Assembly: GCF_036711975.1 (NCBI RefSeq)
Contig: NC_091976.1
Span: 23,932,001-23,996,000 of the forward strand
Reading direction: 5' to 3'
Source of the DNA: Onthophagus taurus
Taxonomy: Eukaryota; Arthropoda; Insecta; Coleoptera; Scarabaeidae
DNA length: 64,000 bases
Below, piece by piece: positions 1,607 to 50,489 of this stretch. Made by a program: the position numbers and the translations under genes. Position 1 is the stretch's first letter, and each line of letters starts with the position of its first letter. Below the pieces are notes generated by a model, which did no database searches, had not been told where the DNA came from, and saw only the letters and a list, made by a program, of their open reading frames with translations.

Positions 1607-2814
1607 GTTGAAACAATCGGAGATGCTTACATGGTCGTTTCTGGGGCACCCGAAAAAGAAGTAAATCACGCTGAGAAAGTTTGTAATATGGCTTTAGATA
1701 TGGTGAATGCAATCACAGACTTAAAAGATCCATCAACGGGTATAATAAAATATCTCAAATACTAAATAACTTTAGTTTTAATGTTAATTATTTAATTTTA
1801 GGTCAACATCTACGCATAAGAGTTGGAGTACATTCAGGCGCTGTAGTTGCAGGAATCGTAGGATTGAAAATGCCAAGATATTGTCTTTTCGGTGATAGTG
1901 TTAACACAGCTTCAAGAATGGAATCGACGAGCGAAGCGATGAAAGTACATATATCAGAATCAACGAAAGATTTATTATCGGATTCTTATAAAGTTCAGGA
2001 AAGAGGTGAAATCCAAGTGAAGGGTAAAGGAGAGATGAAAACTTTTTGGTTAGAAGGAAGGTCATCGAGAAATTCCCCCCTCATATCATCACCAATACCA
2101 AAGAACGACTTTAAAACATCACAAATTGATATCGCAACTAGACCAAAAGATGGAAAAAGTGTTGCATATTCACCGATAACTTTTCAGGATGTTGCTAGGA
2201 GGAGCATTGTGAGTTCTCCGGTAAAAACGATAAGTTCAAGAGAATCTAGATCGAATTCTGAAGGAACTGTTATGACCGGTAATGATCCTGGTGATATTTT
2301 TGGTTCGGTTATCAATGTAGCTTTAACAACTTTAGGAAATCATGTTGAAAGTAAATTAAATGAATCAATAAGAAATGAAACAATAAAAAATGAATCAATA
2401 AAGAATGAATCAAAAAAGAACGAAAAGAAAGAAGAAAGTTGGGAAAATGTTGCAAAATTTGTAAAAAAAAATAAAATTCATAAAGAGACTTGTTTATATT
2501 ACAAAAAAGATGAGAAAGCAAATGGAAAATCGATTGAGAAACCCAAATTTGAAACAAAATCGGTTTTAAAAGAAGAAAAAGAGAAAAGTGTGGTGAAAAA
2601 ATCGCCAAATTTTGGTTTGAAAAGTTCGACTAAATCGAAAAATTCGCTTAGCGAAGGGAACATCGCGGTCTGTATGATAAACTCTGCATTACCAAACAGT
2701 CAAAGTCAACCTTTTGATACAAATAGCAATAATAGTCAAGTTCAGGATCAGTGTTGTTCATTCGGAGGTGGAAATAGACATAAATTCCATACGAATGCTT
2801 GTAATGTTATGTAG
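1607..2814 (+). CDS. Gyc88E: Atypical soluble guanylate cyclase (Gyc88E-like), C-terminal part
   Basis: Two exons are visible: 1607-1739 and 1802-2814 (stop TAG), joined in frame across a 62 bp intron; they encode the last 381 residues. The 5' exons (haem-NO-binding, PAS-like and first half of the cyclase domain) lie before the window. The catalytic domain is visible as [14 protein letters not shown], then [10 protein letters not shown] and [20 protein letters not shown], with the Asn and Arg expected in the cyclase active site. Known atypical cyclases of this group respond to oxygen or NO and make cGMP; that role is inferred. After about residue 131 comes a tail of about 250 residues that is Lys/Asn/Glu/Ser-rich with short KNES-type repeats, ending [20 protein letters not shown]. 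The wording of the catalytic segment fits Gyc88E better than the classical beta-1 subunit. The assignment to one subunit type is inferred from memory of the family. Confidence 0.83.
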
Positions 2815-6456: not shown

Positions 6457-9400
6457 ATGAGTGAATCTGAATATTCAAGAAATATAAAAGGATCATATGA
6501 TTTTCAACCTCAATATGTAAAAGAAGCAGCTTCAATATGGAAAAGAGCGTTAATGATCTCTTGTGAATCAGTTTGGTGTACAATTATAATAGCGGGAAGT
6601 GTTTTTAGCGTCTTAGAAAGTCTTTATCGATCAATACGTAGTGCTTGTTATGAAAGAGACGTTCGTAAGTACTCAATTATATCTTCTCATAACTCCAATA
6701 ATAATTACTTTGTATTGTTTTAGCTTTATTCATCGTAATTGACGTAATATTCGGCATTGATATTGTTTTGTACCTTTCGTGCTTATGCGTTCCAAAATTG
6801 AATATTCCCGAGGTGAATTTGGGGTTCCGATCAAAATTAACGGTAATTTTCGAAATCATATCGTTACTACCGGTGCATCTTATTATCCCAACTGAAACTC
6901 AACGAGAACGAAACGTTTATTGCGTTTTTCGGGTTACCAGGTCGTTAAAAGTCGTTCGTGTGTTTAGTTTTATCTCATCAACGGGGAAATATTTAACAAA
7001 ACCTGGATTAGTTGTTGCGATACAATTGCTTTTTACAGCTTTTTTTGTTACAACGTTAACTCAAGCGTTATATTACAACTGCAGATTGCTTATTTATGAG
7101 ATCAAAATTGGCCCGTATGATGCTTCGGTTCTTTTTGAAAATATAACGTTAAATTTAATAAGTGGAGGAAAAAGTGATGTTCCTGGAGATGTTACTTGGG
7201 AATTATTTATGTTGATAGGAGTTATTGTTTCGTTGTATTTTGCTAATGCGCGCATGGCTGCTTTTGTGGTGGGAGCCGTTAATGGTTATACTCAAAGGGT
7301 TGAGTTTAGGCAGCGTTATTCAACGGCTATGCAAAGATTTTTAAGTTATGGAAATATGAGTTGGTTGGTGAATAACACAAATGATATCTTTGAGGAATTT
7401 TGGAAGCAAAGGGGTGGGTATGAAAGTACTACGGATTGTTTAAAAATTTTACCCCCAACTATAGGGAGCTTTATTCAGTGCAATATAGCTTACCCCGCTT
7501 TTATACATTCAAGGATGTTTAGGAGGATGAATTACGTTTTTTTGAGACATATCTCCCAAGCGATTGAAGTGAGATATTATTTTCCGGGGGAATATGTTTA
7601 TAGATTAAATCAACACAAAAATAAAATGATGTATTTAGTTCGAGGTGTAATCCAAGTCTTATCGGACGTGGATGGTATCACGCCACTTTTTCAATTTACT
7701 TCCGGTACATGCATCGGTGATAGCACGTTGTTTACCAGTTATAAATCGACGACCGTTGTCCAATGTAAAACTTATTGCGAATTTTACGTGTTAAAAATGA
7801 AACATTTTCAAAGGGAATTATCTAAATTTACACAAGAACAAACGTTTATGAGAAAATTGGTGCGAAAACGATACAGAAACGCAATGGAATTGAAATCTTT
7901 GTGGGAAAACCACGATGGAAATAGCAAGGATAGGCAAAGTAGATACGTTTCAACGAGTTGGTTAAAAAACACTCTCCACCGATTGATGTCTTCCAATAAA
8001 AATTCGGTTTTACAACACGAATTTCAAAATATTCATTTAGTTAATGAATTTAAATTGAAATATTTTGATATGAAAATATTTACGGCTTTGTATCTCGATA
8101 CTTTAGCGATTGATGATAGGTTGTCGACACATAAAGAAAGGTTGTTTATAAAACGTACCTTTCCAATGTTAATTCAACCAAATTCTATTGGGGCTTATAT
8201 TTGGGAAGGAGTCGTAATGACATTTACGATTTTATTATTAATTGCAATGCCTTATACGGCTTTTGTGTTAGAAAAGATGTCATCTTGGTATATGCCGTTA
8301 AAAAATATTGCGACAGCAATTTTTTGGTTCGATATTCTTGTTATTTTGAGTACGAGCATTAAAAATCGAAGTGGGTATTGTTATAATTATAAAGATAATG
8401 TTATTGCTCGGTTTCAAACTGTTTCTTTTTGGTTAGCGGTGATAGCTTCGTTCCCAATGGAGATTTTTACACCAATTTTTTTATTTAAGTTAAATAATAA
8501 AAGTATCGTTTTGATGCACGTTAATCGGCTGCTGAAAATAATAAGATTAGTTAGATACGTTACTGATCAACAAAAAAATTATAAATCTAATTTATTACTA
8601 TCGTGGTTATTAATTTTAACTTTAACTCGATTTTATTGGATTTACCTGCTTTATTTTATAATGAGTTATTATTGTGATGATACTTTGAAGGTGAATCCAA
8701 TAGAAATTTTTGTTAATGCTTTCTTTTATGCAAGTAGTGTGCCCGGGATAACATCGCCAGATCATTGGATTTTTATTATATCGAAATATGTTATTGTAGG
8801 ATTGTGGGTTTGGATAACTTCAGGAATTTGCGCATCAATAATTTTGTATGAGAAAAACATCTTGGATGTGCAAGAGATTAGTTTCCAATTGATGCAACTT
8901 GTTAGCGAACACAAACTTAATTTAACCTACGATAGATTGCAAAATTATTTAACAGCCCAATTTTTAGATAACGCAACTCTTCATTTCTACGATTCGAAAT
9001 TTAATATCTATTACTCAAAACACTTCAAAGGTGATGTTATTTGCAGTTTAGTTTTAGATAATATCGAAAAAGCGACGTGTTTGTCGATTTTCGATGAAGA
9101 TGTTTTGTTGGAAATTTCAAGAAACGCACATATAAGACTTTATCCTTCCGATGAAATTATAATTCAAGCTGGAGATGTCGCCGACGCGATTTATATCCTT
9201 AAAGAGGGAAGTTGCGATGTGTTCCACCGTGATGGGGATTTTATGAAATATATTGATGTCCCATCGGAGCTAAATTTAATAGAAAATATTTTTAAGACGC
9301 CTTCAATACACACCGTTATATGTAGAGCGAATTGTGTGGTTATTATAATATTGAAGAGTGATTTTCTTTCGATTTTAAAGCGAAAATGGGATAAATGGTT

Positions 9401-12400
9401 AGAAATTAACGAGATTATTAATAATTCCAACGATATTAAATCAGGTTTATATAATCTCGGCGAGTTTAATCATCAAGAAATAAGAATTAAATCAATGCTC
9501 ATTAATATTACTAAACCTTGGAGTTTTAAAGTATTTAGAAATGTCAATGTGATTGGGAGCTTTGAAGAATATGATTATTATCATCCGTTCGATTCGTTAT
9601 TAATGTTTAGTTTTATACGATTTTTTTTAATGAAAGTAACTTTTCACCCGGAAGGTAAATTTTTGTATTTTTGGGAATCACAAAGGATTTTTTTCGCTGT
9701 CTTATCATGTTTGGGATCATTTTGTGTCCCCATACTAAAATCGAAGTCAAAATTTTATCTTATTTTCCTCGATGTAACCGCATTAATTGATGTTTATGTC
9801 CGCTTGCACGTTGGTTATTATCAAGAAAATGGTGTTTTAGTAACGCACCCATTAAAAACATCGGTTCATTATATAACTCACGGATTATTAATCGATTTAT
9901 TAGGAATACTACCAGTTAGATATTTTTATAAATATTCCGTTATTACGGAAGTTTTTTTTAATTCATCGCGATTGCTTCAATTACACCGTTACATCCAATT
10001 TTTGAATTATTGCAAAAATGATATATTAAAACCCACGAATCGAAAAACAACGATCTTGTACATCCCATTAATTTTGATTTTAACCAACATCCTAGCTTGC
10101 ACGTTATTTTTGTTAGAATGTAACATAACTGAAAATGAAAATAATTATCTCACAAACAACTTAACATTAATTGGATTTAAATGTAACGATCATTCTTTAT
10201 TGGCCTCATCACACTACAAAAATAAAATAACCTTATTCGACGCCCATTGGTACCTACTTTGGGTTTTAACTTCTTTAATGACCGATCGACACTTTATTGG
10301 GTACTCGATAAAATCGACTCATTCTTTTATGGTTCTAGCTTTGGTGAAGGTGTTTTCGCTTTACATAAACGTAATGATTTTTTGTAGGATTTTTACTTAC
10401 TTTTCGTTTCGCGATACCGATTTAATCGAAACCCAAATTTCAATGCAACATTTGAAACGTTGGTTAAATCAAACCGTACGCAGCCCGAAACTAACGAAAA
10501 CGATGATTGATACGCAAAAGTTACGCTGGGAACGAAGAAATCACATGAGAATGTCGAAATTCGTCGCGCCGTTTAACCCCGTTTTAAAAGCCGACGTTTT
10601 GGAGGAATATTTTTCGAAATTTTTTTATAATGAAAAAAGTCTTTTTGGTAAAGATTTTAAGAAGTTTTATCGAAGTATGTTGAAACACGTTTCGATCGAT
10701 GTTGTGATTAAAAAAGGATTTCTTCAAACTATAAACGATATTGATGATGAGTTGTATATTCTTCTTGATGGGATGGGGGAGGTTATCGCCGCTGATGGGA
10801 CTAAGTTGGCTTCGCTTGGTAATTCGAGTTTATATGGAAATTTAACCGATGAAGATTTCACCAGGTTAAAAGTTAGCGTAATCGCAGTGACTAACGTACA
10901 AATTTTGAAGGTAAAAACGAAAATTTGGAATCAAAAGATTATGTTTTATCCCGATTTAGAAAAGGAATACAAAAAATATCGCAATAGATGTTTGTTTTAT
11001 ATTAAAATGAATCCTGAGGAAGCGTTTTTAAAGAAATTAAAGAGGATGAAAGAAATTAGTAGTGCTACTGTACCACTTATGATGGGGACAACGTCGATAA
11101 ATACGCGTTTATCGAATATAATCGCAAAAACTTATTTATTTTTTCCTTGTTATATCGGAGTTTTAACAGATATGTATCAATTAACAGTCATGGATTTTTC
11201 AACTTGGGTTTATTCGATTCAATGTTTTTGTGATGTCGCTTTCGCCGTTGAAATAATAATGTTGGATCGTACATCGGTATTAAATAAATACGGATTTAAA
11301 ATACGCGATTTAACGGCCATTAGGAAGAAAAATAGAAAGAATACATTTTCGAATTGGATTCGATTATTTACTGTATGGCCTTTTGATCTAATTGTTTTTC
11401 ACATACCCACAGCTAGATATCCAACAATGATAATTTTCCTTATTTTGAGGTTTCCAAAATTGTTAAGAATCTTTTTATTCAACGATTATTTATTAAAAAT
11501 ACGAACGGGATTCCTCCCAAATTTATTTTGGTACCGGATGGTTCATATTTTTGGTTGGTTAATTACGTTTCTTCAATGTTGCGTTTTTATGATGAGTTTT
11601 ATGTGCTATATGGAGGTAAACATCAACGTGCATGTACCGAGTTGTCGAGAAATCTTCGATTTACCCCCAAACAAAAAATTTTCTCTTTATATACGCTACA
11701 TGTTTATATTAGTAAAAACTTACGCGCAAATGCTACAATATTTATATTACCCAATTTGCGCTAATACTTATGTAATGTTCACGATAATGATGTTGGTGAT
11801 GAACTATTTATTTTGCGTTTTATCCGCACGAACTTTCTCAACATTTTACGAATGGTTTGTTATTAAATGTAGGTATTTCCACCTGTATGATCACCTACAC
11901 AAATTCTTAAACTACGAAAATGCATCCGTTGCAATAAAAGATCAAGCTTTAAATTATGTAAAAACGTTTTGGTTTATACATCAAGGAGAATACTTCCCAA
12001 ATTTAGTAAAAAATGCAACGCCGTATTTAAAAGACGCTCTTTATAACCACGCTTACGCCTTTCTTCTTTATAAATCGGATGTATTTGGTTCATGCCATGA
12101 AGATTTCCTTCGACAAGTTGTTCAAAAATTGGATAGTCGCGTTTATTTAGGCGGACAATTTATACAATACGCTGGAGCTATTGATTCTTGTATGTATTTT
12201 TTGTATCATGGGCAAGTAACCGTTTTGGATGATAACAAAATTGGAAAAGATGCCAATATAATTTGGTTGAAAAAAGGAGCATCTTTTGGAATTGAAGCTG
12301 GGTTATTAAGAGGAACACGACATAAATATTCTTATCGGTGTGTTATAAGATGTGTCATTCTCAGTTTATGTCTCAACGATTGGGAATATTTGTTAGAATA

Positions 12401-12458
12401 CTTCCCAGCTAGTAAAGAATTTATTTATACTACCATTAAAAGTTATAACGGAGTATAA
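6457..12458 (+). CDS. Four-repeat cyclic-nucleotide-gated-channel-like protein with degenerate pores
   Basis: Exons 6457-6664 and 6724-12458 join in phase to 1,980 residues; the second exon alone is 5.7 kb. Four units of six membrane segments plus a C-terminal cyclic-nucleotide-binding-like domain (CNBD) follow each other. Approximate membrane blocks are residues 33-245, 555-785, 1045-1295 and 1535-1775; CNBD-like folds are near 350-435, 865-955, 1395-1475 and 1880-1975. The S4 of repeat 1 keeps spaced basic residues (FRVTRSLKVVRVF), and its C-linker has FEEFWKQRGG. The layout recalls the single-chain four-repeat CNGK channels known from sea urchin and some insects. None of the four pore loops has GYG or the usual CNG GET-type filter: they read LISGGKSDVPGD, ASSVPGITSPD, TSLMTDRHFIGYS and KTYAQMLQYLYYP. 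The CNBD phosphate cassettes also lack the normal GE...RxA pattern (repeat 1 has GTCIGDSTLFTSYKSTTV). The long frame is uninterrupted, so selection appears to maintain it; what it conducts, if anything, is unknown. Confidence 0.85.
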
Positions 12459-12759
12459 TTAATAAATATAAATCATTTCAAAACTTACTTATTTTCTAAT
12501 AAATCTCTTAAGAGTACAACAAAAAAATAGTAGTGTGGATTAAAGAGAAAACAAAATTAAAATTAAAACCAACTCTCCAACAAAAAAATACAAATAAAAA
12601 GCATATAAAAATTATTGTTACTTATTTAAACAACAATACAAAACATTAACGAAGTAGCCAAAGAAACATTAAAAATATCGATATCTTTCCTACAATAAGA
12701 GTCATGCGCAAATTCTATACTCATTTCTGATTATAATATAAGTGACAACTCTTCAAAGA

Positions 12760-13146
12760 GATCTCCTAAGAAGTTTTTCCATGTTAAAAAGATCGATGTT
12801 ATTAATTTCAATGTACCTATTCACAGATAAAGAGATCAACATTTTTAACTTACGCCACAAATTTGCTTTCCCTAGGAAGATTAATAATGTGAGCTGGCAA
12901 TCACTTTAGAGTCACAGATTCACAGAGATTTACCTCTTGTTAATGATATTCATAGAGACTTCACTAATATCATTCCAATAGCTAATAAAATTTCCAAAAA
13001 TAGAACTTCAGTCACTTTGAAGGATGTTAAAATTTTAAAACAAAAAGTTAATAATAAAGATTTGATTGCAGGTTTGGTTATTATCCCTAAAGAGGCTTAT
13101 ATCTCCAAAACCTATGAATTTTTTAAACAGAACATCAAACACAAAT
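12760..13146 (+). mobile_element. Penelope-like retroelement fragment
   Basis: On the plus strand, IFNLRHKFAFPRKINNV is followed in another frame by LAITLESQIHRDLP and then VTLKDVKILKQKVNNKDLIA with VIIPKEAYISKTYEFFKQN. These phrases match the segment before and into the reverse transcriptase of Penelope-like elements (usual sense: L..GLKFA.PR.IN, then L..NKDI...KADKG..VVI....YI.K...FL). The KADKG heart is lost and the frame shifts once or more. It is a 5'- and 3'-truncated relic of about 390 bp lying exactly where copy A of the duplication lost the CYTH exon. Confidence 0.55.
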
Positions 13147-13151
13147 TTCTA

Positions 13152-13293
13152 ATTTTAATCTTCATTGGGAAACTTTAAAAAACGTATCATGTTGATGTAT
13201 TAAAACACCATCTGAATCGGTTAGTTTTTTAATTTTTTCTTTTAAACCTTTTAAATCGCGTAATTTCGCTTTAATTTCCACGTTTCTTAACAT
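13152..13293 (-). pseudogene. Partial copy of CYTH-gene exon 1
   Basis: This is a near-identical copy of the first exon of the CYTH gene (working copy 14076-14231), beginning with ATG at 13293 and encoding MLRNVEIKAKLRDLKGLKEK and onward. A stop codon replaces the Gly after KVSQ, and the copy then loses similarity before the splice donor. No second exon follows. It is a broken by-product of the tandem duplication. Confidence 0.8.
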
Positions 13294-13420
13294 TTTAATT
13301 AATTCCCGCGTAAAAAGTTAACCTAAAAATTAACATGTGACAGATGTCAAAATAAATTAACCTCAACGAAAAAATTCTAACCTTAATTTATCAAAGTGCA
13401 AAGACGAAAATAGTTTCAAA

Positions 13421-13495
13421 ATGAAATTATCGAATATATTTAATTATTCGCGTCGAACGAAGAATTTGTATCAACATTTTACCTCTTTAGAACCT
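13421..13495 (+). pseudogene. Truncated 5' copy of the FASTK-domain gene
   Basis: ATG at 13421 opens MKLSNIFNYSRRTKNLYQHF, matching the true gene start at 14359 except for Asn in place of Cys. After about 24 codons the sequence jumps at 13495/13496 into a copy of the channel gene 3' end. With the duplicated promoter still in front, this short frame could be transcribed but would give only a short chimeric peptide. Confidence 0.8.
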
Positions 13496-13640
13496 GACAT
13501 AAAGATTCCTATTGGTGTGTTATAAGATGTGTCATTCTCAGTTTATGTCTCAAGGATTGGGAATATTTGTTAGAAAACTTCCGGGCTAGTAAATAATTTA
13601 TTTATACAACCATTAAAAGTTATAATGGAGTATAATTAAT
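13496..13640 (+). pseudogene. Duplicated 3' end of the channel-like gene
   Basis: The sequence copies 12317-12461, the last codons and stop of the four-repeat channel gene, with several substitutions. One of them creates an early stop in the segment equivalent to ASKEFIY. It has no 5' exon. It marks the left edge of the right-hand copy (B) of the duplication and runs into the intact 3' end of the CYTH gene. Confidence 0.8.
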
Positions 13641-13661
13641 AAATATAAATCATTTCAAAAC

Positions 13662-14231
13662 TTACTTATTTTCTAATAAATCTCTATAAGCCCCTTTGAG
13701 CAAATCACCATCTTCAATCCCCAATTTCCCCATCAAATCGTTACAAATTAAATTTCCCTCTTCAAGGGATTGTTCCGGTTTCAAAACCACCTCTAATTCA
13801 ACGAAATTCCCCAATTCATCAACACTATCTAAATGAATTCTAGTTTGTCCCACTAAATACAATTCTCGAGTTTTCTTAACCACTCCAAAAACACCCAAAG
13901 CATGAGATAAAACGATTTTTAAACCATCCACATTTTCAGCTTTAATATCACACTTTTCAAACGAAGATAATTTTGGACCTTCATCATCGGGGCGATTGTA
14001 AGAAATTATCTCAGCATCACCATTCTAAAATGTAATTTTAAAATAAAAATTCACCAAAAATTTGTTTATTTTAACCTGAAATTGTCGCAATTTTAATCTT
14101 CCTTGGGAAACTTTAAAAAACGTATCATGTTGATGTATTAAAACACCATCTGAATCGGTTAACTTTTTAATTTTTTCTTTTAAACCTTTTAAATCGCGTA
14201 ATTTCGCTTTAATTTCCACGTTTCTTAACAT
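13662..14231 (-). CDS. CYTH-domain (CyaB/triphosphatase-like) protein
   Basis: Exons 14076-14231 and 13662-14024 join in phase 0 across a 51 bp intron to 172 residues. The whole protein is one CYTH fold: N-terminal RNVEIKAKL, then TFFKVSQGRLKLRQF, YNRPDDEGPKLS, GVVKKTRELYLVGQTRIHLD, FVELEVVL and a C-terminal GAYRDLL. CYTH proteins bind triphosphates in a tunnel with metal and act as triphosphatases or class IV adenylate cyclases; the substrate here is unknown. The opening signature is usually ExExK; here the first acidic position is Asn (N-V-E-I-K), as I recall for the CyaB-like animal branch. The gene lies head to head with the FASTK-domain gene, 127 bp apart, and its stop is about 1.2 kb from the channel gene end. 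A broken copy of exon 1 lies at 13152-13293. Confidence 0.85.
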
Positions 14232-14358
14232 TTTAATTAATTCCCGCGCAAAAAGTTAACCTAGAAATTAACATGTGACAGATGTCAAAATAAACTAACC
14301 TCAACGAAAAAATTCTAACCTTAATTTATCAAAGTGCAAAGATGAAAATAGTTTCAAA
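14232..14358. promoter_or_regulatory. Bidirectional promoter between CYTH and FASTK-domain genes
   Basis: Only 127 bp separate the two divergent start codons, so both genes must share this promoter and short 5' UTRs. No TATA box at a convincing spacing is seen. The same block is duplicated at 13294-13420 with few differences, where it faces two truncated gene copies. Confidence 0.65.
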
Positions 14359-17300
14359 ATGAAATTATCGAATATATTTAATTATTCGCGTCGAACGAAG
14401 TGTTTGTATCAACATTTTACCTCTTTAGAAGTTCCGAAGTTACAATTAATCCAAAAAAGGCACGTTTTCATCGATGGTCTTGTCACAAAGAGTAGTTTTG
14501 TAACTAATAAACTATCTTCAATCAATAATAATAATACAATTAGTAATAAACGATACACTCATGATGATTACGAGTTTGATTTCGAAACGGAATTAAAAAT
14601 ATCAAACGAAGTTTATGAAGAAATATATCAACAACCCGATTATGAGAGGCAAATTTTGTATCCCGATTTAAAGGATGAGTTAATGAAACAGATTAATGAA
14701 TGTGCGTCGATTGGGGCTGCTTTAAGTATTGTAAAAAATGATAAAGATCAACTTATGGTGAGTCATTTAACTCAGTTGGTTGTAACGTTTTGGGATTTAC
14801 AACGAATGTATCATCATGTTAATATCTCAAGAAATAATGCGTATGTGGATGAAACGATTTTTTTACAAATGAATAATGATTATACGAATTTGTTGTTTGA
14901 AAATGATGTTTTTAAAGAATTTGTGATGTTGATTAATGATAATAGGAGTAAGTTTAACGTGGAGCAGTTGAGTTATTTAGTTTATTTTTTGAATAAAATC
15001 GGTTTCTGCATTAAAAGCGAAATGTTTCAGAATTTAATTATTGAGTTTAATAAGAAGTTTTTTACCGAAAACTTTTCTATGGACAATTTATCAAGATTTA
15101 TGTCTGGATTATATAAAAAGGATGATTTATCTTTTTATTATGCTACTCAACAATATATTCCTATTATTTATAAAGAAATTGATAACATTGTTACTGTTGA
15201 TGACTTAGTAAATATAAATAAATGTTTAGCTACAATAGCAGTTCTTGTACCAAATGAAATTCTTTTAAAATACAAGAAAAAAGTGTATGAACTTATCATT
15301 AAAGGACATTTAAATCATAATAATTATAAATGTATCATTAGAACTGCAACATTTTTAAACTTTCCTTTCTGGAAACATGAAAATCTTCAATTATTAGTAG
15401 ATTGTTTAAAATTGTTAAAAGGCCACGTGCATTTATTAAACGTCCAAGAATTATTAATGGTTTATGATGTTTTTAATAAATTACATGAACCCGGTGATAT
15501 ATTAAATGAACTACAAAGAACAGCGAGTAAATATTTACTACAACTAGAAGAAGATTTATCCCCACTCTTAGATATAAGATTAAGATTATTAGCCTGCGTT
15601 ATGTATTTTACATCCCCATCTCAACGATTAAACATTCGCAAAACCATCCGAAAATACCTAGATTATGATTTAGATGGATGCACAATGTTGGAGTTACAAA
15701 AAATCATGTTAATCGCCAAATCGAACGATCTTAATTTATGTAAAACAGTTTGGAATAAAATTTTAATCTGTTTAGATGACGAAAATTTTGTCAAATCGAA
15801 TTTATTAAGAGTTTGTCACAGTTATCTTAATTTTGAAGAAATAACCGATAATTTTCGACACGTTGAATGCGAAAGAAAACTTTTAAGTCTTTTAAAAACG
15901 GAATTTAACGAAGGATTAATCGGACATACACCTTGTTATTTTTCAAGTATCGCTTCGTTTCATTTAATTTACTGTCGTGACATTGAAATGATCAATAAAG
16001 TTATCGATCGCATGGAAGAATTTAAAGATCAATTTAACCCAATCGACTGTATAAATATTTCACAAAGCTTAGAATACGCTAAAGAAGAAAATGTATTGTT
16101 AACGAAACATTTAGTGGAAAGGATTAATAACGTTTTGGATCACGTTACAAATAATTTCAAGGAAAACGCTAATAGTTCGGAATCTATTTTACTGTTAAAA
16201 GCAGCTATGGCTCGAGAAAATATCCAAAATTATACTGATTTATGGAAAAAATTCGATGAAAATGTATCTTCACAAACTATTTTAGGACTATGTTATTGCT
16301 TATACACAACAGGTACTTTATTACCGAATATTATGGATATAATGACGGATTATGTTGTTAAAAATGGAATGAATCTTCTTGGATTCAACGTCGAAAGAAT
16401 TTTGTTTTTATGTTATTTTTTAGGATATATTCCCAAGAATTCAGAAAAGTTTTTTGAGGCAACCACCAACGTTTTAATAAGGTAATTTTTTTTCAAATTT
16501 AAGAAATTTTAATATTAAGGGCTATGCCACCTATAAATTAAAAAAAAAATGTTGTTTCTTTTTGTTTAAAATGTATTTTAGACTGTGTATAATGAGAATC
16601 CATTGACAGAAAATAATTGCAATGAAAAATGTATTTAAAATGAAATCAGTTATAAAATTTAAAGGTTTTTTATGACATAATAAAAAAGTTTTATTGTGGA
16701 CACCTGTATAGCATTGATCCCGTGGTTGCCTACTTTCAAAAGTCATTTTAAAGGATTTCTCATCATAACATTGCATTATTTGCCAAATTTTATTTTTAAG
16801 ACAAACAATGTTGAAAATATTTAAGAGAATCTTAAGCATTTATGGGTTTAGACCAAAAATGTTTACACGAATCATCATTTTATTAAAATTATGCCACGAC
16901 TTACAGAAACACCTGTATATATACATATAGGTATTTTGACATTAGTTTGACATCAGTTTGACATTAGTTAGACATTTAGTTTGCTTTTCGTACATTTTAA
17001 CCGCGAAAGTTAAAAACGAGTAGTGTTTACGAAGTGCATAAAATATATTTGCAAGTATAGATGATAAAAAATAGTGGTGGAACGGATATCCGGTAACTAT
17101 CCGGCCATTTTTTTAAAATCCGGTCGGATAGCGTATGGTTACCAAATATCCGGCTTTGACCGGATATTATCCCATTAACTGCCACGATCCGCATTTGGGG
17201 ATTTTAAATTTTAACGTAACCACTTGATAAACTACAATTTAAAAAAAAATGGCAGTCAATGGGTTAAAAACATTGATATTACTATTACTTAGTACTCCAC

Positions 17301-27959: not shown

Positions 27960-30900
27960 TCATTTCTCTACATGTTTAGCTTTAGTAAATTGTTGAATTT
28001 CCCTTAAAATCATCTCTGTTTCTTCTGTAGCTTTTTGCGATTCAATTTTGGTTTGTAACTTTTCCAAATTGATGGTTCCGTAATGATTTATTTCTTCTAA
28101 ACTGTTCTCGTGTAATAAACAATTATGGGCGCATTTAGTAAGTTTGGTTTGGTGGTAAATTTCATCCCTTTTAGAGTAATATTTTTTCCGAGCTTTTTTT
28201 GCCAAGACATCCAAAGGCCCCCAAGCTTTTGAAGGGGAAACGGCTTCAGTCATTTTTGCTAAACACTAAAAATAATTGTTATTTAATCTGTTTATTTCAA
28301 ACATTGTTTACTTACTGACTGTTTTTTCTTTGGTTTTGACGAGGTGTAACATTGATACATCAGTATTAATATCATTGGGAGAATGAAAGCTATATTTTTA
28401 AGAAGCGCTAAATATGCTAATCGTGGTGTTAAGTTTTGAATTGTGTACGATTTAAAATAGAGTAACATATAAAGGAAGATGCACTAAAATAAATTGATTA
28501 AGTTAAATTATTTTATTTAAATTTGTTTAAAACTTACTAAAGCAGAACCAGCCGCAAATTTTAAAGCTGATATAAAATAGGGGCTTGGGTAATAATTGCA
28601 AAACTTGAAATCCTCAACAACTTTTTGAATCGTGTATATAAAAATTAAACCAATAACAACAGACAAAGTAGATATGATAATTAAAAATGCTTCGGTGAAA
28701 TAATGAAAATGATAAAAAATAAACATCGCAAAATTGGTACAAAAGAAAAAATTGAAACAGAACGCTATAAAACACAGAATAGCGTAAAGAATTATTCGAC
28801 AATTTCGTAAACGTCCAAAGTATTCAAGTAAAGCATTTACAATACTAATAAGGGTGTAAATTACGACGTGGAAGGCGGTATAACTTAAAGAAAAGTACCA
28901 GAAAAGGTTTAAATAAACACCAAATTCTGTTCGATACAAAACGTCCGGAAGAAAAGCAAAAACAATATCATAACCCGTCACTAAAAGGCACTCTTTATCT
29001 GTGTATTTATAGTGGTCAAAAACTAATTGGGAACATCTCCTACTGAGGAATATTACTAATAAAAACACCGAGGTTTTTAATGATCCCAAAACACAACCGG
29101 CAATATTTACTGAAAGAGATTTCGGTTTCATCTTTCCAGCCCAAATAACATCGGAGATTATAAAAATATCGGTTGCGTGTAAATAGATATAAACCCAATT
29201 ATTGAACTAAAAAGATAATAAATTTAATAATAAAAGTAATATAACGTAAAACCTGGATATAACGGACTGAAGTAATATGGGGAATTTAGCCTTTAAACTG
29301 TTTGCTATGCGTCTGAGAGCAAAAGTCAAAGAGAGCAATATTGTTAAGAATAAAATTTGCCACAACTTTTGTTCTGAAAGTTTTTTTGGAGCATGCTTCG
29401 AATCCCAAGTGTTACCATTAACTTGTGAAAGTACGAATTTTACAAATTTTCACATATTCGTATTTTTCTCGATATTTTCGCATCTGAGAGCAAAAATGAA
29501 AGAGAGCAATATTGGTAAGAATAAAATTTGCTATAACTTTTGTTTTAAAAGTTTTTCTGTAATGTGCTCCGAATCTCGAGTGTTACCATTAACTTGTAAA
29601 ACTACGAATTTATCGAATTTTCACATATTCGTATTTTTCCCGGTATTTTCGCATCTGAGAGCAAAAGTGAAAGAGAGCAATATTGTTAAGAATAAAGTTT
29701 GCTACAACTTTTGTACTGAAAGTTTTTTTGTAATATTCTTCGAATCCCAAGTATTACCATTAACTTGTAAAAACTATGAATTTATCAAATTTTCACATAT
29801 TCGTATTTTTCTCGATATTCTCGCATCTGAGAGCAAAAGGGAAAGAGGGCAATATTGTTAAGAATAAAGTTTGCTACAACTTTTGTACTGAAAGTTTTTT
29901 TGTAATATTCTTCGAATCCCAAGTATTACCATTAACTTGTAAAAACGATGAATTTATCAAATTTTCACATATTCGTATTTTTCTCGATATTCTCGCATCT
30001 GAGAGCAAAAGTGAAAGAGAGCAATATTGTTAAGAACAAAGTTTGCTACAACTTTTGTACTGAAAGTTTTTTTGTAATATTCTTCGAATCCCAAGTATTA
30101 CCATTAACTTGTAAAAACTATGAATTTATCAAATTTTCACATATTCGTATTTTTCTCGATATTCTCGCATCTGAGAGCAAAAGTGGAAGAGAGCAATATT
30201 GCTAAGAATAAAATTTGCTATAAGTTTTGTTCTGAAAGCTTTTTTGTAACTTGGTTAAAATTCGAAATGTTACCATTAATTTGTAAAACTGCGAAATTCA
30301 TCAAATTCTCATATTTTCGTACTTTTCTCGATATTTTGGCATGTGGGACCAAAAGTGAAAGAGAGCAATATTCTTAAGGATAACATTTGCTACAACTTTT
30401 GTTTTAAAAGTTTTTTTGTAATATGCTCCGAATTCCAAATGTTACCATTAACTTGTAAAACTACGAATTTATCAAATTTTCACATATACGTATTTTTCTC
30501 GATATTTTCGCATCTGAGAGCAAAAGTGAAAGAGAGCAATATTATTAAGAATAAAATTTGCTACAACTTTTGATCTAATAGTTCTTTTGTAATATGCCCC
30601 GAATTCCAAATGTTACCATTAACTTGTAAAACTACGAATTTATCAAATTTTCACATATTCGTATTTTTCTTGATATTTTGACACCTGAGAGCAAAAGTGA
30701 AAGAGAGCAATATTGTTAAGAATAAAGTTTGCTACAACTTTTGTACTGAAAGTTCTTTTCTAATATGCTCCGAATTCCAAATGTTACCATTAGCAACTTA
30801 TAAAGCTATAAATTCATCAAATTTTCATATTTTCGTATTTTTCTCGATATTTTCAAATCTGAGAGCAAATATGAAAGAGAGCAATATTGTTAAGAATAAA

Positions 30901-32960
30901 ATTTGCTACAACTATTGTACTGAAAGTTCTTTTCTAATATGCTCCGAATTCCAAATGTTACCATTAGCAACTTATAAAGCTATAAATTCATCAAAATTTC
31001 ATATTTTCGTATTTTTCGCGATATTTTCAAATCTGAGAGCAAATATGAAAGAGAGCAATATTGTTAAGAATAAAATTTGCTACAACTTTTGTTCTAAAAG
31101 TTCTTTTGTAATATGCTCCGAATTCCAAATGTTACCATTAACTTGTAAAACTACGAATTTATCAAATTTTCACATATTCGTATTTTTCTTGATATTTTGA
31201 CATCTGAGAGCAAAAGTGAAAGAGAGCAATATTGTTAAGAATAAAGTTTGCTACAACTTTTGTACTGAAAGTTCTTTTCTAATATGCTCCGAATTCCAAA
31301 TGTTACCATTAGCAACTTATAAAGCTATAAATTCATCAAATTTTCATATTTTCGTATTTTTCTCGATATTTTCAAATCTGAGAGCAAATATGAAAGAGAG
31401 CAATATTGTTAAGAACAAAATTTGCTACTACTTTTGTGCTGAAAGTTTTTTGTAATATTTCCTGAATCCCGGAATAGATAATACTAATAGTATGAGTATA
31501 TAGGAAATCCTTCCTAACGAGGTCCGTTATATCAAGGTTTTACTATAACACTATTTTAATCTTACGTTCATTGTTGATGTTGATGTCACCATACTATAAT
31601 CATTTGTAATCTCAAAATTACTAAACATCGCAATAACAATGATAAAAAGCATAGCAAAATCGCAAAAGAACTGAATTTTCTGTAACGTCGTTTTTATTCT
31701 TCTTGCACCGAGGATACAGATAAAAAAAGTTGCTAACCAAGTAAAAAACGCCGTCAAAACTAAGCTGTAATTAACGGATATTTCGTTATCATGCAAAGGG
31801 TCGTATTGTAGTATGTGATATCTAAAACGAGGCATTTTTAATTTTATTTTAACCAATTAATTCATATATGAGTTTAAGTATTGCATGAAATTTTTGGTGG
31901 AGGAGCCGGGTTAATAATAAACTCAATTTCCTGCAATAGTTACGTGCATAAGTTGAAATAAAAACCTGAAATGGTGTTGAGTCGAAAAAAAAACTTTTTT
32001 AGCAGTTAAATTTGTGCTTCTAAAAGCTGTTAATAAATCAAATTGACCACTCTCCGAGAATTGTTTGCAGTGTAACGTGTTATTGACTTTGGGGAACATC
32101 GGTAAACACGTGCTTTTATCGGCGAAAGCACAACTTTGAATCGATTTTGTAATATCGGGGTGCATAAGGATGTCTAGTGCGCATTCTGTAGCAACAGCAC
32201 TGAAAAGAATTAAATGAAGACAGTAGAGGAATCTTGCTAATAAGATTGCGTATCCAATTCCTAGAAAAAAATAATAATTAAATTAATGTATTTTAATAAA
32301 TGAAACGTAAAAGAGTAAATAAAATAAGGATAAAGCAACACTACCATTAAATTCATGGAATTTTATTTACATTTTGATGTTAGTATTAAAAATAGAGAAA
32401 AATATAATTCAAAAAATTGATAAGATTAATTGGTATGTTGTAAAATCAAAGTGTAAATGTAAGAGAGTATTGATTGGGAGGAGAAGAATTAAAATTACCT
32501 CTAAAAATAGGAATACAATCCCAAAACTTTAAAAATCCTTTCCCGGAGTAACTACTCATAAAAACCAATAAAATTAGTAAAGGAACTCCAATAACCAGTT
32601 GTAAGAAAAAAACTGATATAAAAACTGTCACTGAAACAAACATAATTACAAATATGTCTTAATTTTTTATAAAATTGAGTTGTTACTTCCAGGTAGAAGT
32701 TTTAATATCTCCATTAATTGAATTGTGTAGTACATATTCGTTTGGTAACATAACGAAATCGTAAAATATTCCCTATAAGTTAACACAGCAAGATTTATTT
32801 CCTAAAATAAGTTAAAAAAGTGTTAAATTTAAGATTGCATTAAATTTACCTCTTCGATTTGACTCCCAACAATCGATTGAATAAACAATTTCTTTTTAAT
32901 ATTGTAAAGAGGTACTTTCGATAACCGAGTTGGAAACCAAACTCTTTTTAAATCTGGCAT
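27960..32960 (-). CDS. Divergent SLC6-family (neurotransmitter:sodium symporter-like) protein
   Basis: Eight exons on the minus strand, 32850-32960, 32687-32801, 32499-32630, 31966-32260, 31566-31821, 28538-29206, 28316-28483 and 27960-28265, join with consistent phases to 683 residues, a normal SLC6 length. Family marks are KFWDCIPIFRGIGYAILL (TM2-TM3 region), a Cys-rich extracellular loop with an N-glycosylation site, TAFFTWLATFFICILGARR (TM5), FNNWVYIYLHATDIF and a C-terminal PSKAWGPL like the conserved W-G-P tail. The NxWRFPY signature of TM1, which binds Na+ and substrate, is absent: that region reads YFTISLCYQTNMYYTIQLME. It is therefore probably not an ordinary Na+-coupled transporter, although the frame is intact. 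The intron 29207-31565 carries a 2.3 kb satellite-filled transposon. The first exon lies right beside the 190 bp tandem array. The start ATG is the first in the most upstream exon I could join and is less sure than the rest. Confidence 0.78.
29243..31547. mobile_element. Pogo-type non-autonomous element filled with a 172 bp tandem array
   Basis: The ends are inverted repeats: GTAAAACCTGGATATAACGG on the left at 29246, and its mirror GTCCGTTATATCAAGG-TTTTAC at 31522-31543, about one mismatch in 22. They match in type the end of the Tigger relics at 51.2 and 57.6 kb (GTTATATCGCGGTTTTACTG). Between them lie about 12.5 direct copies of a unit of about 172 bp, recognisable by GAGAGCAATATTGTTAAGAA (29331, 29502, and so on to about 31395). 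The units differ by substitutions only and stay open in one frame for long stretches, but the peptide is repetitive and shows no coding sign. The whole lies in an SLC6 intron. Confidence 0.75.
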
Positions 32961-33000
32961 TTGTACGATTTGACTTTTATTTTAACCCTTTGTGTCCCAA

Positions 33001-35495
33001 GAAAACTAATTTAAAAATTCCTGGAAACCGTATTTATTGAAATTAAGGAATGAGACTTGTTCTAAGTTAAAGCTCAAAGCTTTCTCTTTAAAATGATGTA
33101 TAATAATTGTTGGGTTGGATTGGAAAAATATTGAGAAAAAATATTTTGAAATAAAACTTACATTTTCGTATAACCTAAAAGTGTCAAAAAAGATGCTAAT
33201 TTAAAAATTCCTGGAAGCCGTATTTATTGAAATTAAGGAATGAGACTTGTTCTAAATTAAAGCTCAAAGCTTTCTCTTTAAAATGATGTATAATAATTGT
33301 TGGGTTGGATTGGAAAAATATTGAGAAAAAAATTTTGAAATGAAACTTACATTTTCGTATAACCTAAAAGTGTCAAAAAAGATGCTAATTTAAAAATTCC
33401 TGGAAGCCGTATTTATTGAAATTAAGGAATGAGACTTGATTTAAATTAAAGCTCAAAGCTTTCTCTTTAAGATGATGTATAATAATTGTTGGGCTGGATT
33501 AGAAAAATATTGAGAAAAAAAGTGTTGAAAGAAAACTTACATTTTCGTATAACCTAAAAGTGTCAAAAAAGATGCTAATTTAAAAATTCCTGGAAGCCGC
33601 ATTTATTGAAATTAAGGAATGAGACTTGATTTAAATTAAAGCTCAAAGCTTTCTCTTTAAAATCATGTATTATAATTGTTGGGTTGGATTGGAAAGATAT
33701 TGAGAAAAAAAATGTTGAAACAAAACTTACATTTTCGTATAACCTAAAAGTGTCAAAAAAGATGCTAATTTAAAAATTCCTGGAAGCCGCATTTATTGAA
33801 ATTAAGGAATGAGACTTGATTTAAATTAAAGCTCAAAGCTTTCTCTTTAAGATGATGTATAATAATTGTTGGGCTGGATTAGAAAAATATTGAGAAAAAA
33901 AGTGTTGAAAGAAAACTTACATTTTCGTATAACCTAAAAGTGTCAAAAAAGATGCTAATTTAAAAATTCCTGGATGCCGTATTTATTGAAATTAAGGAAT
34001 GAGACTTATTCTAAGTTAAAGCTCAAAGCTTTCTCTTTAAAATGATGTATAATAATTGTTGGGTTGGATTGGAAAAATATTGAGAAAAAAAATGTTGAAA
34101 CAAAACTTACATTTTCGTATAACCTAAAAGTGTCAAAAAAGATGCTAATTTAAAAATTCCTGGAAGCCGTATTTATTGAAATTAAGGAATGAGACTTATT
34201 CTAAATTAAAGCTCAAAGCTTTCTCTTTAAAATCATGTATTATAATTGTTGGGTTGGATTGGAAAAATATTGAGAAAAAAAATGTTGAAACAAAACTTAC
34301 ATTTTCGTATAACCTAAAAGTGTCAAAAAAGATACTAATTTAAAAATTCCTGGATGCCATATTTATTGAAATTAAGGAATAAAACCGATTTTAAACAAAA
34401 GCTCAAAGCTTTCTCTTTAAAATGATGTATAATAATTGTTGGGTTGGATTGGAAAAATATTGAGAAAAAAAAAAGTTGAAATAAAACGTACATTTTCGTA
34501 TAACCTAAAAGTGTCAAAAAAGATGCTAATTTAAAAATTCCTGGAAGCCGTATTTCTTGAAATTAAGGAATGACACTTGTTCTAAATTAAAGCTCAAAGC
34601 TTTCTCTTTAAAATAATGTATAATAATTGTTGAGTTAGATTGGAAAGATATTGAGAAAAAAAATGTTGAAACAAAACTTACATTTTCGTATAACCTAAAA
34701 GTGTCAAAAAAGATGCTAATTTAAAAATTCCTGGAAGCCGCATTTATTGAAATTAAGGAATGAGACTTGATTTAAATTAAAGCTCAAAGCTTTCTCTTTA
34801 AGATGATGTATAATAATTGTTGGGCTGGATTAGAAAAATATTGAGAAAAAAAGTGTTGAAAGAAAACTTACATTTTCGTATAATCTAAAAGTGTCAAAAA
34901 AGATGCTAATTTAAAAATTTCTGGAAGCCACATTTATTGAAATTAAGGAATGAGACTTGTTCTAAATTAAAGCTCAAAGCTTTCTCTTTAAAGTGATGTA
35001 TAATAATTGTTGGGTTGGATTAGAAAAATATTGGGAAAAAAAGTGTTGAAAGAAAACTTACATTTTCGTATAACCTAAAAGTGTCAAAAAAAATACTAAT
35101 TTAAAAATTCCTGGAAGCCGTATTTATTGAAATTAAAGAATGAGACTTGTTCTAAATTAAAGCTCAAAGCTTTCTCTTTAAAATGATGTATAATAATAGT
35201 TGAGTTGGATTAGAAAAATATTGGGAAAAAAAGTGTTGAAAGAAAACTTACATTTTCGTATAATCTAAAAGTGTCAAAAAAGATACTAATTTAAAAATTC
35301 CTGGAAGCCGTATTTATTGAAATTAAAGAATGAGACTTGTTCTAAATTAAAGCTCAAAGCTTTCTCTTTAAAATGATGTATAATAATAGTTGAGTTGGAT
35401 TGGAAAAATATTGAGAAAAAAATGTTGAAACAAAACTTACATTTTCGTATAACCTAAAAGTGTCAAAAAAGATACTAATTTAAAAATTCCTGATT
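33001..35495. repeat. Tandem array, about 13 copies of a 190 bp unit
   Basis: Copies start with AAAAATTCCTGGAAGCCG at about 33013, 33202, 33392 and every 189-190 bp to 35482. Each contains AAGCTCAAAGCTTTCTCTTT and ACTTACATTTTCGTATAACC. On the minus strand, toward the SLC6 first exon only 40 bp away, nearly every unit has a pyrimidine-rich tract, AG, a 13-nt stretch GTTATACGAAAAT, and GTAAGT, that is, consensus splice sites around a potential micro-exon. No inverted terminal repeats flank the array. Confidence 0.85.
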
Positions 35496-35799
35496 TGATT
35501 GAAAAACAACAAATTGAATAAAAATTATTATTATTATTACGTATTACAAATTAAAATCTATTTGTACAATAGAAACGCGTATTCCACGTGTAAATCGTCA
35601 CGATATAGATAAAATATTTATAGTAATATATCTTAGCATCAACAAGATAAATCCGCAAGGGCAGAAGCACGAGTGAATTATTATTTTTATTTTTAAGCAT
35701 TTTTTCGAGCACCATAACGCACTAAATATAAAACGTCTTCAAGTTTTTACACTTTCACCAAAAATGTTTTATTTAAAGTCTTATTTTTTTAAATGTAAA

Positions 35800-39255: not shown

Positions 39256-39339
39256 TCTTGCTGAAAAGTCACTCCTCTTCATTATTGAAATCATCTCTTC
39301 ACTCAGCGATTAATTTCGTTTCTGAAGCACTTGAAATTT

Positions 39340-40975
39340 TTATACTCATATTTCGAGAACTGGATTTTATACGAATTTTTAAAACTTAATCGGCTAAAAT
39401 TTCAAAATTTGAAAAAATTGTCGATCATTTCAAATATTTATTTTTCAAAAACTTTTTCAAAACGGCTTGTTGCATTAAAAAGAGAATATTTTAATTAATA
39501 ATAGTTAATATTTCCACAAGGATCCTTCAAGAAATAAATTTTATAGCGAAGTTTGAAAGTTATCGATGAAAATTGCAACATCGAAAATTTTATCAAAATT
39601 TCAAATATTGTTTTCTCAAAAACCAAAAGCTATTTTGAAAAACGGGTTGGTTCATTGGAAAGAAGACACTTTTATTAACACTTTTGGAAATTTTTATACT
39701 AATATTCCAAGAACTGGATTTTATATGAATTTTTAAAACTTAATCGGCAAAAATTGCAAAATTCGAAAAAATTTTCGATCATTTCAAAAATTTATTTCTC
39801 AAAAACTAAAAGCTATTTTTCAAAACGGATTGGTTCATTGGAAAGAAGACACTTTTATTAACACTTTGGGAAACTTTCATACTCATATTCCAAGAACTGA
39901 ATTTTATACGAATTTTTAAAACTAAATCGGCGAAAATTGCAGATTGCGACAAAATTGTTGATCATTTCAAAAATTTATTTCTCAAGAACTAAAAGTGATT
40001 TTTTAAAACGGCTTGTTGCATTAAAAAGAGGATACTTTAATTAATAATTGGCAATATTTCCACAAGGATCCTTCAAGAAATGAATTTTATACCGAATTTT
40101 GAAACTTATCGATGAAAATTGCAACATCGAAAATTTTATCAACATTTCAAATATTGTTTTATCAAAAACTAAAAGCTATTTTTTAAAACGGGTTGGTTCA
40201 TTGGAAAGAAGACACTTTTATTGACACTTTGGGAAATTTTCATACTCATATTCTAAGAACTGGATTTTATACGAATTTTTAAAGCTTAATCGGCGAAAAT
40301 TGCAAAATTCGAAAAAATTGTCGATCATTTCAAAAATTTATTTCTCAAGAACTAAAAGCGATTTTTCAAAACGGCTTGTTGCATTAATAATTGGTGATAT
40401 TTCCACAAGGATTCTTCAAGAAATGAATTTTATAACGAATTTTGAAAGTTATCGATGAAAATTGCAACATCGAAAATGTTATTAAAACTTCAAATATTGT
40501 TTTCTCAAAAACTAAAAGTTATTTGTCAAAACGGGTTGGTTCATTGGAAAGAGGACACTTTTATTAACACTTTTGGAAATTTTCATACTCATATTCCAAG
40601 AACTGGATTTTATATGAATTTTTAAAACTTAATCGGCGAAAAATGCAAAATTCGAATAAATTGTCGATCATTTCGAAAATTTATTTCTCAAGAACTAAAA
40701 GCGATTTTTCAAAACGGCTTGTTGCATCAAAAAAAGAATATTTTAATTAATAATTGGTGATATTTCCACAAAGATCCTTCAAGAAATGAATTTTATACCG
40801 AATTTTGAAACTTATCGATGAAAATTGTATCAAAACTTCAAATATTATTTTCTCAAAAACTAAACGCTATTTTTCAAAACGGGTTGGTCCATTGGAAAGA
40901 AGACACTTTTATTAACACTTTGGGAAATTTTTATACTCATATTCCGAGAACTGGATTTTATACGAATTTTTAGTT
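39340..40975. repeat. Tandem array of two alternating units of about 180 bp
   Basis: About nine monomers of two related types alternate. Type A has ACTTAATCGGCGAAAATTGC, CGATCATTTC and TTTCCACAAGGATCCTTCAAG; type B has TTATCGATGAAAATTGCAAC and ATTGGAAAGAAGACACTTTT. The A+B dimer is about 350 bp, with one or two monomers missing. At the right edge the array ends in TTGCCGGATATCCGATCCACCACT, whose first part mirrors a phrase in the FASTK-gene intron (17.07 kb). No coding role. Confidence 0.75.
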
Positions 40976-49390: not shown

Positions 49391-50489
49391 TTTGGATGGT
49401 TCTCGCTGTAAAACTGAACAAAAAGGGGATTGTTTCGACGATGTTAATCGAGATTATAGGATCGTTAGTGGTCCGAAAAAGATAAACATTGAGTGGTTTT
49501 GATTTGTGCATCAGATTACAAACCAAAAAGTACTTCTAATGATAATCGAACTGCGTATACACTTTTTAAATTAAATTAGGACTAGAAAAAAATAATATCT
49601 TAAATTGTACCCAATTCAGTTATGCGAACAAAAACGGACTTTGTTAAGTAAGTTTTATGAGTAATTTTATATCTTGGGATAAATAAAGAAAACAATTTGA
49701 TTGATTATAATCCAAATCATTTTGTTTTCTTACACCTAAATGGAATGTTAGATATACCTTGACCTCCATGTTGATACAGTGACTTGAACAATCACTTTGA
49801 TAAGAGTTGAGTGCCATCATTTTCATTACTAATCAAAATTAATAATCAAAGTTATTTATAATTTGAAAGATGTTTAATTGTTTCCCTGATAACGAACTGA
49901 GTTTGTGACATCACTTTATTTTTTACATTTCAAAATTGTTTCAAGTACTGATGACAACCTTGAAATCACTTATAATTAACAAATCGAAAATTTATTAACA
50001 TTAATTTATAACTCAAGAGGTTTAACAAATTAAAAAAAAAAACATTGGAATTAATTATTTGTGAAATAAAGCTTTTTGCTTTTTTATGCACGACTTGAAT
50101 TAGAAAGTTGAGCTTTTTTGAGTTAATATGAGTTCAGATTTGTGAAAATATCACTACGGCATTAATTTAGAATAAATTTAGTATAAATTTGGGTTTAGGT
50201 CCCAATAATAAGTATAAAGTGTTGAAGTTTTTGTTTTTTTTAAGGTATAAATAACTATTACCCCTTAAATATTATATGACACTACCACTTTGATAAGAAT
50301 TGAATGCCAACATTTTTATTACTAATCAAAATCAATAATCAAAGTTATTATATTTATAATTTGAAAGATGTATAATTGATAACCAGCTGAGTTTGTGACA
50401 TCACATTACTTTTTACATTTCAAAATTGTTTCGAGTACTGATGACAACCTTAAAATCACTAATAATTATCAAATTTATTAATATTAATT
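49391..50489. other. Upstream region of the complete NRF-6-like gene
   Basis: This holds the promoter side of the minus-strand gene and AT-rich spacer. An internal near-repeat exists: 49788-49935 and 50281-50425 both contain CACTTTGATAAGA, TAATCAAAGTTAT and GAGTTTGTGACATCAC. No coding sequence is recognised. Confidence 0.5.

Follow-up and report, generated by a model that had tools for sequence, protein, structure and literature searches.

A predicted four-repeat CNGK-like protein of the beetle Onthophagus taurus with non-canonical pore loops and a recognisable voltage-sensor and CNBD scaffold

CNGK (tetraKCNG), the sperm K+ channel known from marine invertebrates, choanoflagellates and fish, is a single chain of four repeats, each with six transmembrane segments and a cyclic-nucleotide-binding domain (6TM-CNBD), and its pores carry GYG or GFG (PMC4749565). 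One account of four-repeat CNBD channels presents them as K+ channels whose repeats show no obvious specialisation (PMC6259924), and strong filter deviations in the CNBD superfamily, metazoan CNG apart, are reported to be rare and individual (PMC7576140). In HCNL1, a zebrafish sperm proton channel, changes in the filter inactivate the pore, the CNBD lacks the essential Arg and protons pass through the voltage-sensor domain (VSD) (PMC10651576). SLC9C1 (sNHE) uses a VSD and a CNBD without a channel pore (PMC10620092, PMC6052114). Here we describe a gene at positions 6457-12458 of a 64,000-nucleotide (nt) stretch of the Onthophagus taurus genome, hereafter the window (RefSeq assembly GCF_036711975.1, contig NC_091976.1, positions 23,932,001 to 23,996,000, forward strand). 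In the predicted protein of 1,980 residues, sequence comparison recognises the voltage-sensor, C-linker and CNBD parts, but not the pore modules taken on their own; the ligand cassette is mostly changed, and the gene is intact. As judged from sequence, the protein is best read as a four-repeat CNGK-like chain that has lost K+ conduction and has kept the voltage-sensor/CNBD scaffold.

The proposal of the first-pass annotation that one gene holds four 6TM and CNBD-like units is borne out by Pfam, by a profile match to PDB, by hydropathy and by alignment. Pfam cNMP_binding matched the open reading frame (ORF) of exon 2 at E 2.5e-32 in four stretches, and searches with single repeats gave E-values of 5.4e-8 for repeat 1 (exon-2 part), 5.5e-10 for repeat 2, 0.0027 for repeat 3 and 1e-6 for repeat 4. 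The CNBD of repeat 3 is thus the weakest of the four and falls below the Pfam cut-off. Pfam Ion_trans was found in repeat 1 only, at 7e-4, which is below the cut-off, covering the transmembrane segments S2-S5; it was not listed for repeats 2-4 at E up to 10. A profile built from all four matched 169 distinct PDB sequences at E<=1e-4, with CNGA1 the best at 3.8e-28, and shows homology to the CNBD-channel superfamily (CNG/HCN/KCNH) in the VSD, C-linker and CNBD. Each repeat has hydrophobic peaks that were read as S1, S2, S3, S5 and S6, plus an S4-like stretch; the 6TM assignment was made from hydropathy and alignment, not from a good structural model. The mutual identity of the four repeats is about 16-20%. 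CNGA1 and HCN1 align with repeat 4 across nearly the whole repeat, and the membrane part of repeat 3 alone matches hERG at 0.0026 in PDB. The top PDB row of repeat 2 is PKG at 5.6e-8, but this is the sum of four weak stretches with a best single value of 0.073; better single-stretch matches are a PKA regulatory subunit (4.7e-5) and SthK, a bacterial CNG K+ channel (9.3e-5). Its membrane part alone had no PDB match at E up to 10, and repeat 2 was placed by its CNBD and hydropathy, by its S4 and the Pro in S3, and by its alignment with the other three repeats.

It had been claimed that none of the four pore loops has GYG, GFG or the CNG-type filter, and this is correct: none of the strings GYG, GFG and TIGE is present anywhere in the predicted protein. 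The likely filter registers are SGGKSD in repeat 1 (HMMER against SthK), SSVPG in repeat 2 (by eye), FIGYS in repeat 3 (MAFFT, HCN1) and QYLYYP in repeat 4 (HMMER). The register of repeat 2 was set by eye only; MAFFT puts this pore elsewhere, and no tool alignment backs the register. For the filter of repeat 3 the preferred reading is FIGYS, in which GYG has become GYS. The alternative LTSLMT, set by eye in an ungapped register like that of CNGA1, was rejected because MAFFT and the HCN1 pattern favour FIGYS, although neither register is statistically supported. The description of the four pores as non-canonical stands, but the first-pass annotation did not notice that repeat 3 is just one residue off GYG.

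For independence from any single pore placement, a P-loop-to-S6 model was made from eight K+, HCN and CNG channels (SthK letters from printed alignments, the other seven from general knowledge of these channels), and each channel was left out in turn. All eight left-out channels scored 31.9-77.9 bits, HCN1 being the lowest at 31.9; CNGA1, with its TIGE filter, reached 43.6, and the two top-scoring channels were hERG and EAG, which are close relatives of each other. The repeats scored -0.0 (repeat 1), 2.1 (repeat 2), -0.1 (repeat 3) and 0.4 bits (repeat 4), and the whole protein 0.5 bits. From 200 shuffles made of each S5-C-linker stretch, 116 of 198 scored cases equalled or beat repeat 1, 8 of 189 repeat 2, 63 of 181 repeat 3 and 41 of 193 repeat 4. 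Repeat 2 is slightly above its own shuffles, and the part that matches is the S6 end of the model. The recognisable P-loop/S6 that characterises the superfamily was thus not detected by this model. Misplaced pore loops, which would have undone the earlier claim, are not indicated, as three of the four stretches are at the shuffled level and repeat 2 is marginal at 2.1 bits, with the caveat of the IGY-S in repeat 3. The CNGA1 match of the four-repeat profile falls into two parts, one over S1-S5 (4.6e-9) and one over C-linker/CNBD (5.6e-17), separated by an unaligned pore, and the SthK match of the profile covers the C-linker/CNBD only.

The phosphate cassettes of the CNBDs had been described as lacking the Gly-Glu and Arg signature. 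The loss of Glu holds in all four repeats (Asp in repeat 1), and the loss of Arg in repeats 1-3 but not in repeat 4, where HMMER aligns TRH with PRT, Arg on Arg, so that the Arg is apparently kept. The Arg loss in repeats 1-3 is a reading of alignments, and the register in repeat 2 was set by eye. The combination of cassette Gly-Glu and Arg seen in functional cyclic-nucleotide receptors is absent, and cyclic-nucleotide gating has probably been lost. S4-like basic residues, which had been noticed in repeat 1, are also present in repeats 2 and 4 and partly in repeat 3: at every third position repeat 1 has R-R-K-R, repeat 2 (H)-R-K-R-R, repeat 4 R-K-R and repeat 3 only R-Q-R-Q. The S3 Pro and two S4 Arg are invariant across the four repeats, all of which also retain the S2 acidic residue; the S3 acidic residue is found in repeats 2 and 4 only.

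We infer a pseudotetramer without K+ conduction. The single chain would span the membrane 24 times and comprise four VSDs, four pore modules and four C-linker/CNBDs in a CNGK-like build. What remains of the protein might act through the voltage sensors and the CNBD ring, sensing voltage or another ligand. Its output could be either conduction through the VSD, as in HCNL1, or a scaffold or regulator role.

Several observations weigh against this interpretation. The S4 of the protein is similar to that of CNG channels, whose voltage dependence is weak. In an AlphaFold2 (AF2) run with just the four repeats as alignment, the mean predicted local distance difference test score (pLDDT) was 46.9 for repeat 1 without S1 and 45.8 for repeat 4, with nearly all of the transmembrane part below 50; the sole usable part was the CNBD roll, at moderate confidence (42-77 by ten-residue block). 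The models are therefore too poor to show either the pore geometry or the 6TM fold. HCN1, CNGA3, SKOR, TAX-4 and KCNH chains are listed as aligning to the four-repeat profile in one stretch with the pore included, and repeat 4 alone aligns through the pore with CNGA1 and HCN1; the pore region is therefore still alignable, but is not recognised on its own. The pore-S6 part shares less identity with SthK than the CNBD does, both in repeat 1 (11/59, 18.6%, against 35/139, 25.2%; p 0.36) and in repeat 4 (8/52, 15.4%, against 32/139, 23.0%; p 0.32), but neither difference is significant. With IGY-S kept in repeat 3 and Gly-Gly in repeat 1, a non-selective pore is possible. When the AF2 models of repeats 1 and 4 were searched with Foldseek, SthK ranked first, with CNG and HCN chains among the leading matches; the E-values to SthK (3.1e-13 and 3.0e-14) were set aside as proof of fold, because the TM-scores are about 0.3, the root-mean-square deviations are about 20-30 Å and the matches are partly sequence-driven.

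The protein might still be an ion channel whose central filter is new, not of the K+ kind and made of four unlike loops (Gly-Lys, Pro-Gly, Gly-Tyr-Ser, Tyr-Tyr); it could be, for example, weakly selective or anion-tolerant. The SGGKSD of repeat 1, the IGY-S of repeat 3 and the HCN, CNG and SKOR chains that align through the pore agree with this, as does the repeat 1 model, which at low confidence has a helix-loop-helix at the pore. Nav, Cav and NALCN are examples of an asymmetric four-domain architecture (PMC6259924). However, the bulky Leu-Tyr-Tyr of repeat 4 and the Pro of repeat 2 speak against it, and the P-loop scores are near the shuffled level across the pore helix and S6, not in the filter alone. 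We consider such a channel unlikely.

The 1,980 residues had been reported as one open frame. The residue count is right, but the frame is not single: the ORFs at 6457-6723 and 6768-12458 are in different frames, and only the spliced reading, in which 6724-12458 follows directly on 6457-6664, yields exactly 1,980 codons before a TAA stop. A GTAAGT donor lies at 6665, and a TTTTAG acceptor ends at 6723. Exon 1 is required because S1 of repeat 1 sits there; the idea that this S1 is missing was rejected when it was found in that exon. Chance was also rejected as the origin of the long ORF, since at the composition of the window 1,912 sense codons in a row would be expected with a log10 probability of about -72. 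A single 5.7-kb exon (6724-12458) carries everything except the N-terminus and S1 of repeat 1, and such a near-intronless gene could have arisen by extensive intron loss or as a retrocopy.

Downstream of the gene lies a dead duplicate of its 3' end, in which about 50 nt of the 3' flank were copied along with the last 47 sense codons and the stop. Stops interrupt 2 of the 47 sense codons in the fragment and none of the 1,980 in the gene (p 5e-4). When 48 codons were compared, stop included, 11 differed: four changes are synonymous, five are nonsynonymous and two are stops in the copy. The 144 nt of codons hold 12 substitutions against none in the 50 nt past the stop (p 0.039), with one gap further on. 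As 6% of single-base changes create a stop, a gene that had changed neutrally at 5% of its sites would still be open with a probability of about 2e-8, counting substitutions alone. These data, which are no measure of the ratio of nonsynonymous to synonymous rates (dN/dS), support selection on the parent gene since the duplication, by a yardstick that is short and has all its changes in coding sequence. The fragment belongs to a local tandem duplication at 12313-14430, in which 13151-13492 also matches 14089-14430 at 97.4%; the two copied pairs thus affect the channel-like gene at its 3' end and the following ORF (14359-16485) at its 5' end.

A pseudogene that is young or in decay, or a copy on which constraint is relaxed and whose intact relative lies elsewhere in the genome, could account for the strong divergence of the repeats, and the locus is rich in repeats and local duplications. 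This explanation is disfavoured and seems rather improbable to us, because the 1,980 codons are intact, the splice sites match the consensus, an AATAAA follows the stop, and the adjacent dead fragment has already acquired its stops.

There is a slim chance that the central pore has been abandoned altogether and that this is a single-chain protein of four voltage sensors that works through them, for example by a proton or gating-pore path in repeat 3, whose S4 has R-Q-R-Q. If true, it would be a tandem, asymmetric counterpart of HCNL1 and a new class of pseudo-tetrameric sensor. Least probable is a regulator with no pore of its own, which would join other channel subunits and modify them: C-linker and CNBD, through which channels of the CNBD superfamily assemble, score highest in the CNGA1 match, but a four-repeat chain would already fill the tetramer and leave no obvious slot for partners.

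Taken together, we regard it as fairly probable that the protein is a non-K+ pseudo-channel with degenerate pores that is maintained under selection. The earlier suggestion of a fast-evolving branch that would be a pseudo-channel, a regulator of other channels or a channel of new selectivity is consistent with these findings. If the gene is maintained, with all four pores and most ligand pockets changed and the sensors kept, it would show that this architecture is usable beyond K+ conduction, and it would offer a natural test of the roles of voltage sensor and CNBD without a pore.

Table 1. Features of the channel-like gene and its duplicated 3' end, in window coordinates (aa, residue numbers of the predicted protein)
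Feature	Position	Strand	Evidence or remark
Exon 1: ATG start, N-terminus, S1 of repeat 1	6457..6664	+	Hydrophobic peak aa 39-51
Predicted intron, 59 nt, GTAAGT...TTTTAG	6665..6723	+	Frame change between ORFs; donor and acceptor consensus
Exon 2, 5,735 nt: S2 of repeat 1 to TAA stop	6724..12458	+	Open to 12458; four CNBD stretches
Repeat 1, exon-2 part (aa 71-480)	6726..7955	+	Best PDB match SthK E 6e-15; Pfam CNBD 5.4e-8; Ion_trans 7e-4
Repeat 1 pore filter stretch LNLISGGKSDVPG (aa 212-224)	7149..7187	+	HMMER alignment to SthK TTIGYGDI; MAFFT; registers about 1 residue apart
Repeat 1 CNBD (aa 353-436)	7572..7823	+	Cassette Gly kept, Glu to Asp, Arg lost
Repeat 2 (aa 481-985)	7956..9470	+	Pfam CNBD 5.5e-10; PDB PKA regulatory subunit 4.7e-5, SthK 9.3e-5
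Repeat 2 pore filter stretch YASSVPGITSP (aa 738-748)	8727..8759	+	By eye against HCN/SthK
Repeat 2 CNBD (aa 874-956)	9135..9383	+	Pfam 5.5e-10; cassette Gly, Glu and Arg lost, residues by eye
Repeat 3 (aa 986-1500)	9471..11015	+	Best PDB match KCNH CNBHD 3ukn E 1.5e-4; CNGA4, CNGA1, hERG within S1-S5
Repeat 3 pore filter stretch TSLMTDRHFIGYSIKS (aa 1252-1267)	10269..10316	+	MAFFT puts IGYS on IGYG; by eye against HCN1
Repeat 3 CNBD (aa 1406-1473)	10731..10934	+	Pfam 0.0027, below cut-off; KCNH CNBHD alignment
Repeat 4 (aa 1501-1980)	11016..12455	+	PDB SthK 1.5e-10; CNGA1 8.1e-10, HCN1 1.4e-9
Repeat 4 pore filter stretch MLQYLYYPICAN (aa 1739-1750)	11730..11765	+	HMMER alignment to SthK TTIGYGDIT
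Repeat 4 CNBD (aa 1875-1961)	12138..12398	+	Cassette Glu lost, Arg apparently kept
AATAAA just past stop codon	12461..12466	+	Sequence
Dead duplicate: last 47 sense codons, stop, 3' flank; two in-frame stops	13490..13690	+	93.5% identical to 12313-12512

The surroundings of the gene hold other features. About 3.6 kb upstream on the same strand, at 1687-2814 (+), lies the C-terminal part of a gene with a guanylate cyclase catalytic domain (Pfam Guanylate_cyc 7e-34), which we take to resemble an atypical soluble cyclase; that a maker of cGMP lies next to a CNBD protein may be chance. A near-identical tandem duplication of about 6.39 kb at 45064-57546 includes exons whose match to acyltransferase-3 is weak (4.7e-6) and falls below the cut-off. 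Satellite-like arrays at 29249-31439, 32946-35525, 39333-41030, 45382-47768, 51771-54157 and 58033-59388 differ in period (171-174, 190, about 183, 179 and 87 nt) within about 30 kb. At 61200-64000, a perfect inverted repeat of 1,111 nt with 579 nt between its arms reaches the window edge and lies over a DDE_1/Tc5-HTH transposase ORF; it is either two head-to-head copies or an assembly fold-back.

Relatives were sought in several collections. The exon-2 protein had no relative among prokaryotic and viral contigs, an alignment of the SthK fragment with parts of repeats 1 and 4 gave nothing that tblastn confirmed in the same contigs, nor did the SthK fragment alone in viral contigs, and repeats 1 and 4 had no match in a plasmid collection. 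As these collections are prokaryotic or viral, absence there says nothing about animals. No four-repeat CNBD channel of an arthropod is reported in the available parts of the CNGK literature, although databases may well contain entries of this kind without annotation, and such genes could be common and yet overlooked in annotation. Arthropods are missing from the CNGK species listed in PMC4749565, and the PDB searches gave no CNGK-named entry among the matches listed.

The protein shares with CNGK the single chain of four 6TM-CNBD repeats, with a weak CNBD in repeat 3 and the 6TM units taken from hydropathy and alignment. It differs in the pores, which have GYG or GFG in CNGK and in none of the four repeats here, and for this reason it was not classed as CNGK. 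The repeats of CNGK are described as nearly identical (PMC6259924), unlike the divergent repeats of the beetle protein. CNGK repeats 1/3 and 2/4 are sisters (PMC7576140); here, the three quartet topologies on 316 columns were indistinguishable (p-AU 0.52, 0.58 for the CNGK pattern, and 0.21). In the CNGK members studied, the CNBDs are themselves partly or wholly unused: only the third binds cGMP in sea urchin, and in zebrafish the channel responds to pH instead (PMC4749565). The beetle protein may plausibly descend from CNGK.

CNGA, CNGB, HCN and KCNH channels have homologous S1-S5, C-linker and CNBD, but they have one repeat per chain and recognisable P-loops, including the TIGE of CNGA1. SthK, the best PDB match of repeats 1 and 4, is a homotetramer and differs by its TTIGYGD filter. 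SLC9C1 differs by its exchanger domain, whereas Pfam lists none in the exon-2 ORF at E up to 1. HCNL1 is likewise a CNBD-channel relative with changes in the pore filter and a CNBD without the binding Arg. It appears to have one 6TM unit per subunit, judging from its likeness to HCN, against four fused units here, and its S4 has Met in place of Arg at the third position, for which no equivalent Met was identified in the beetle protein, repeat 3 having R-Q-R-Q. A current passing by way of the VSD has been reported for HCNL1 and is hypothetical for the beetle protein. HCNL1 is the closest functional precedent for a four-repeat chain that would have kept its voltage sensors and lost K+ conduction.

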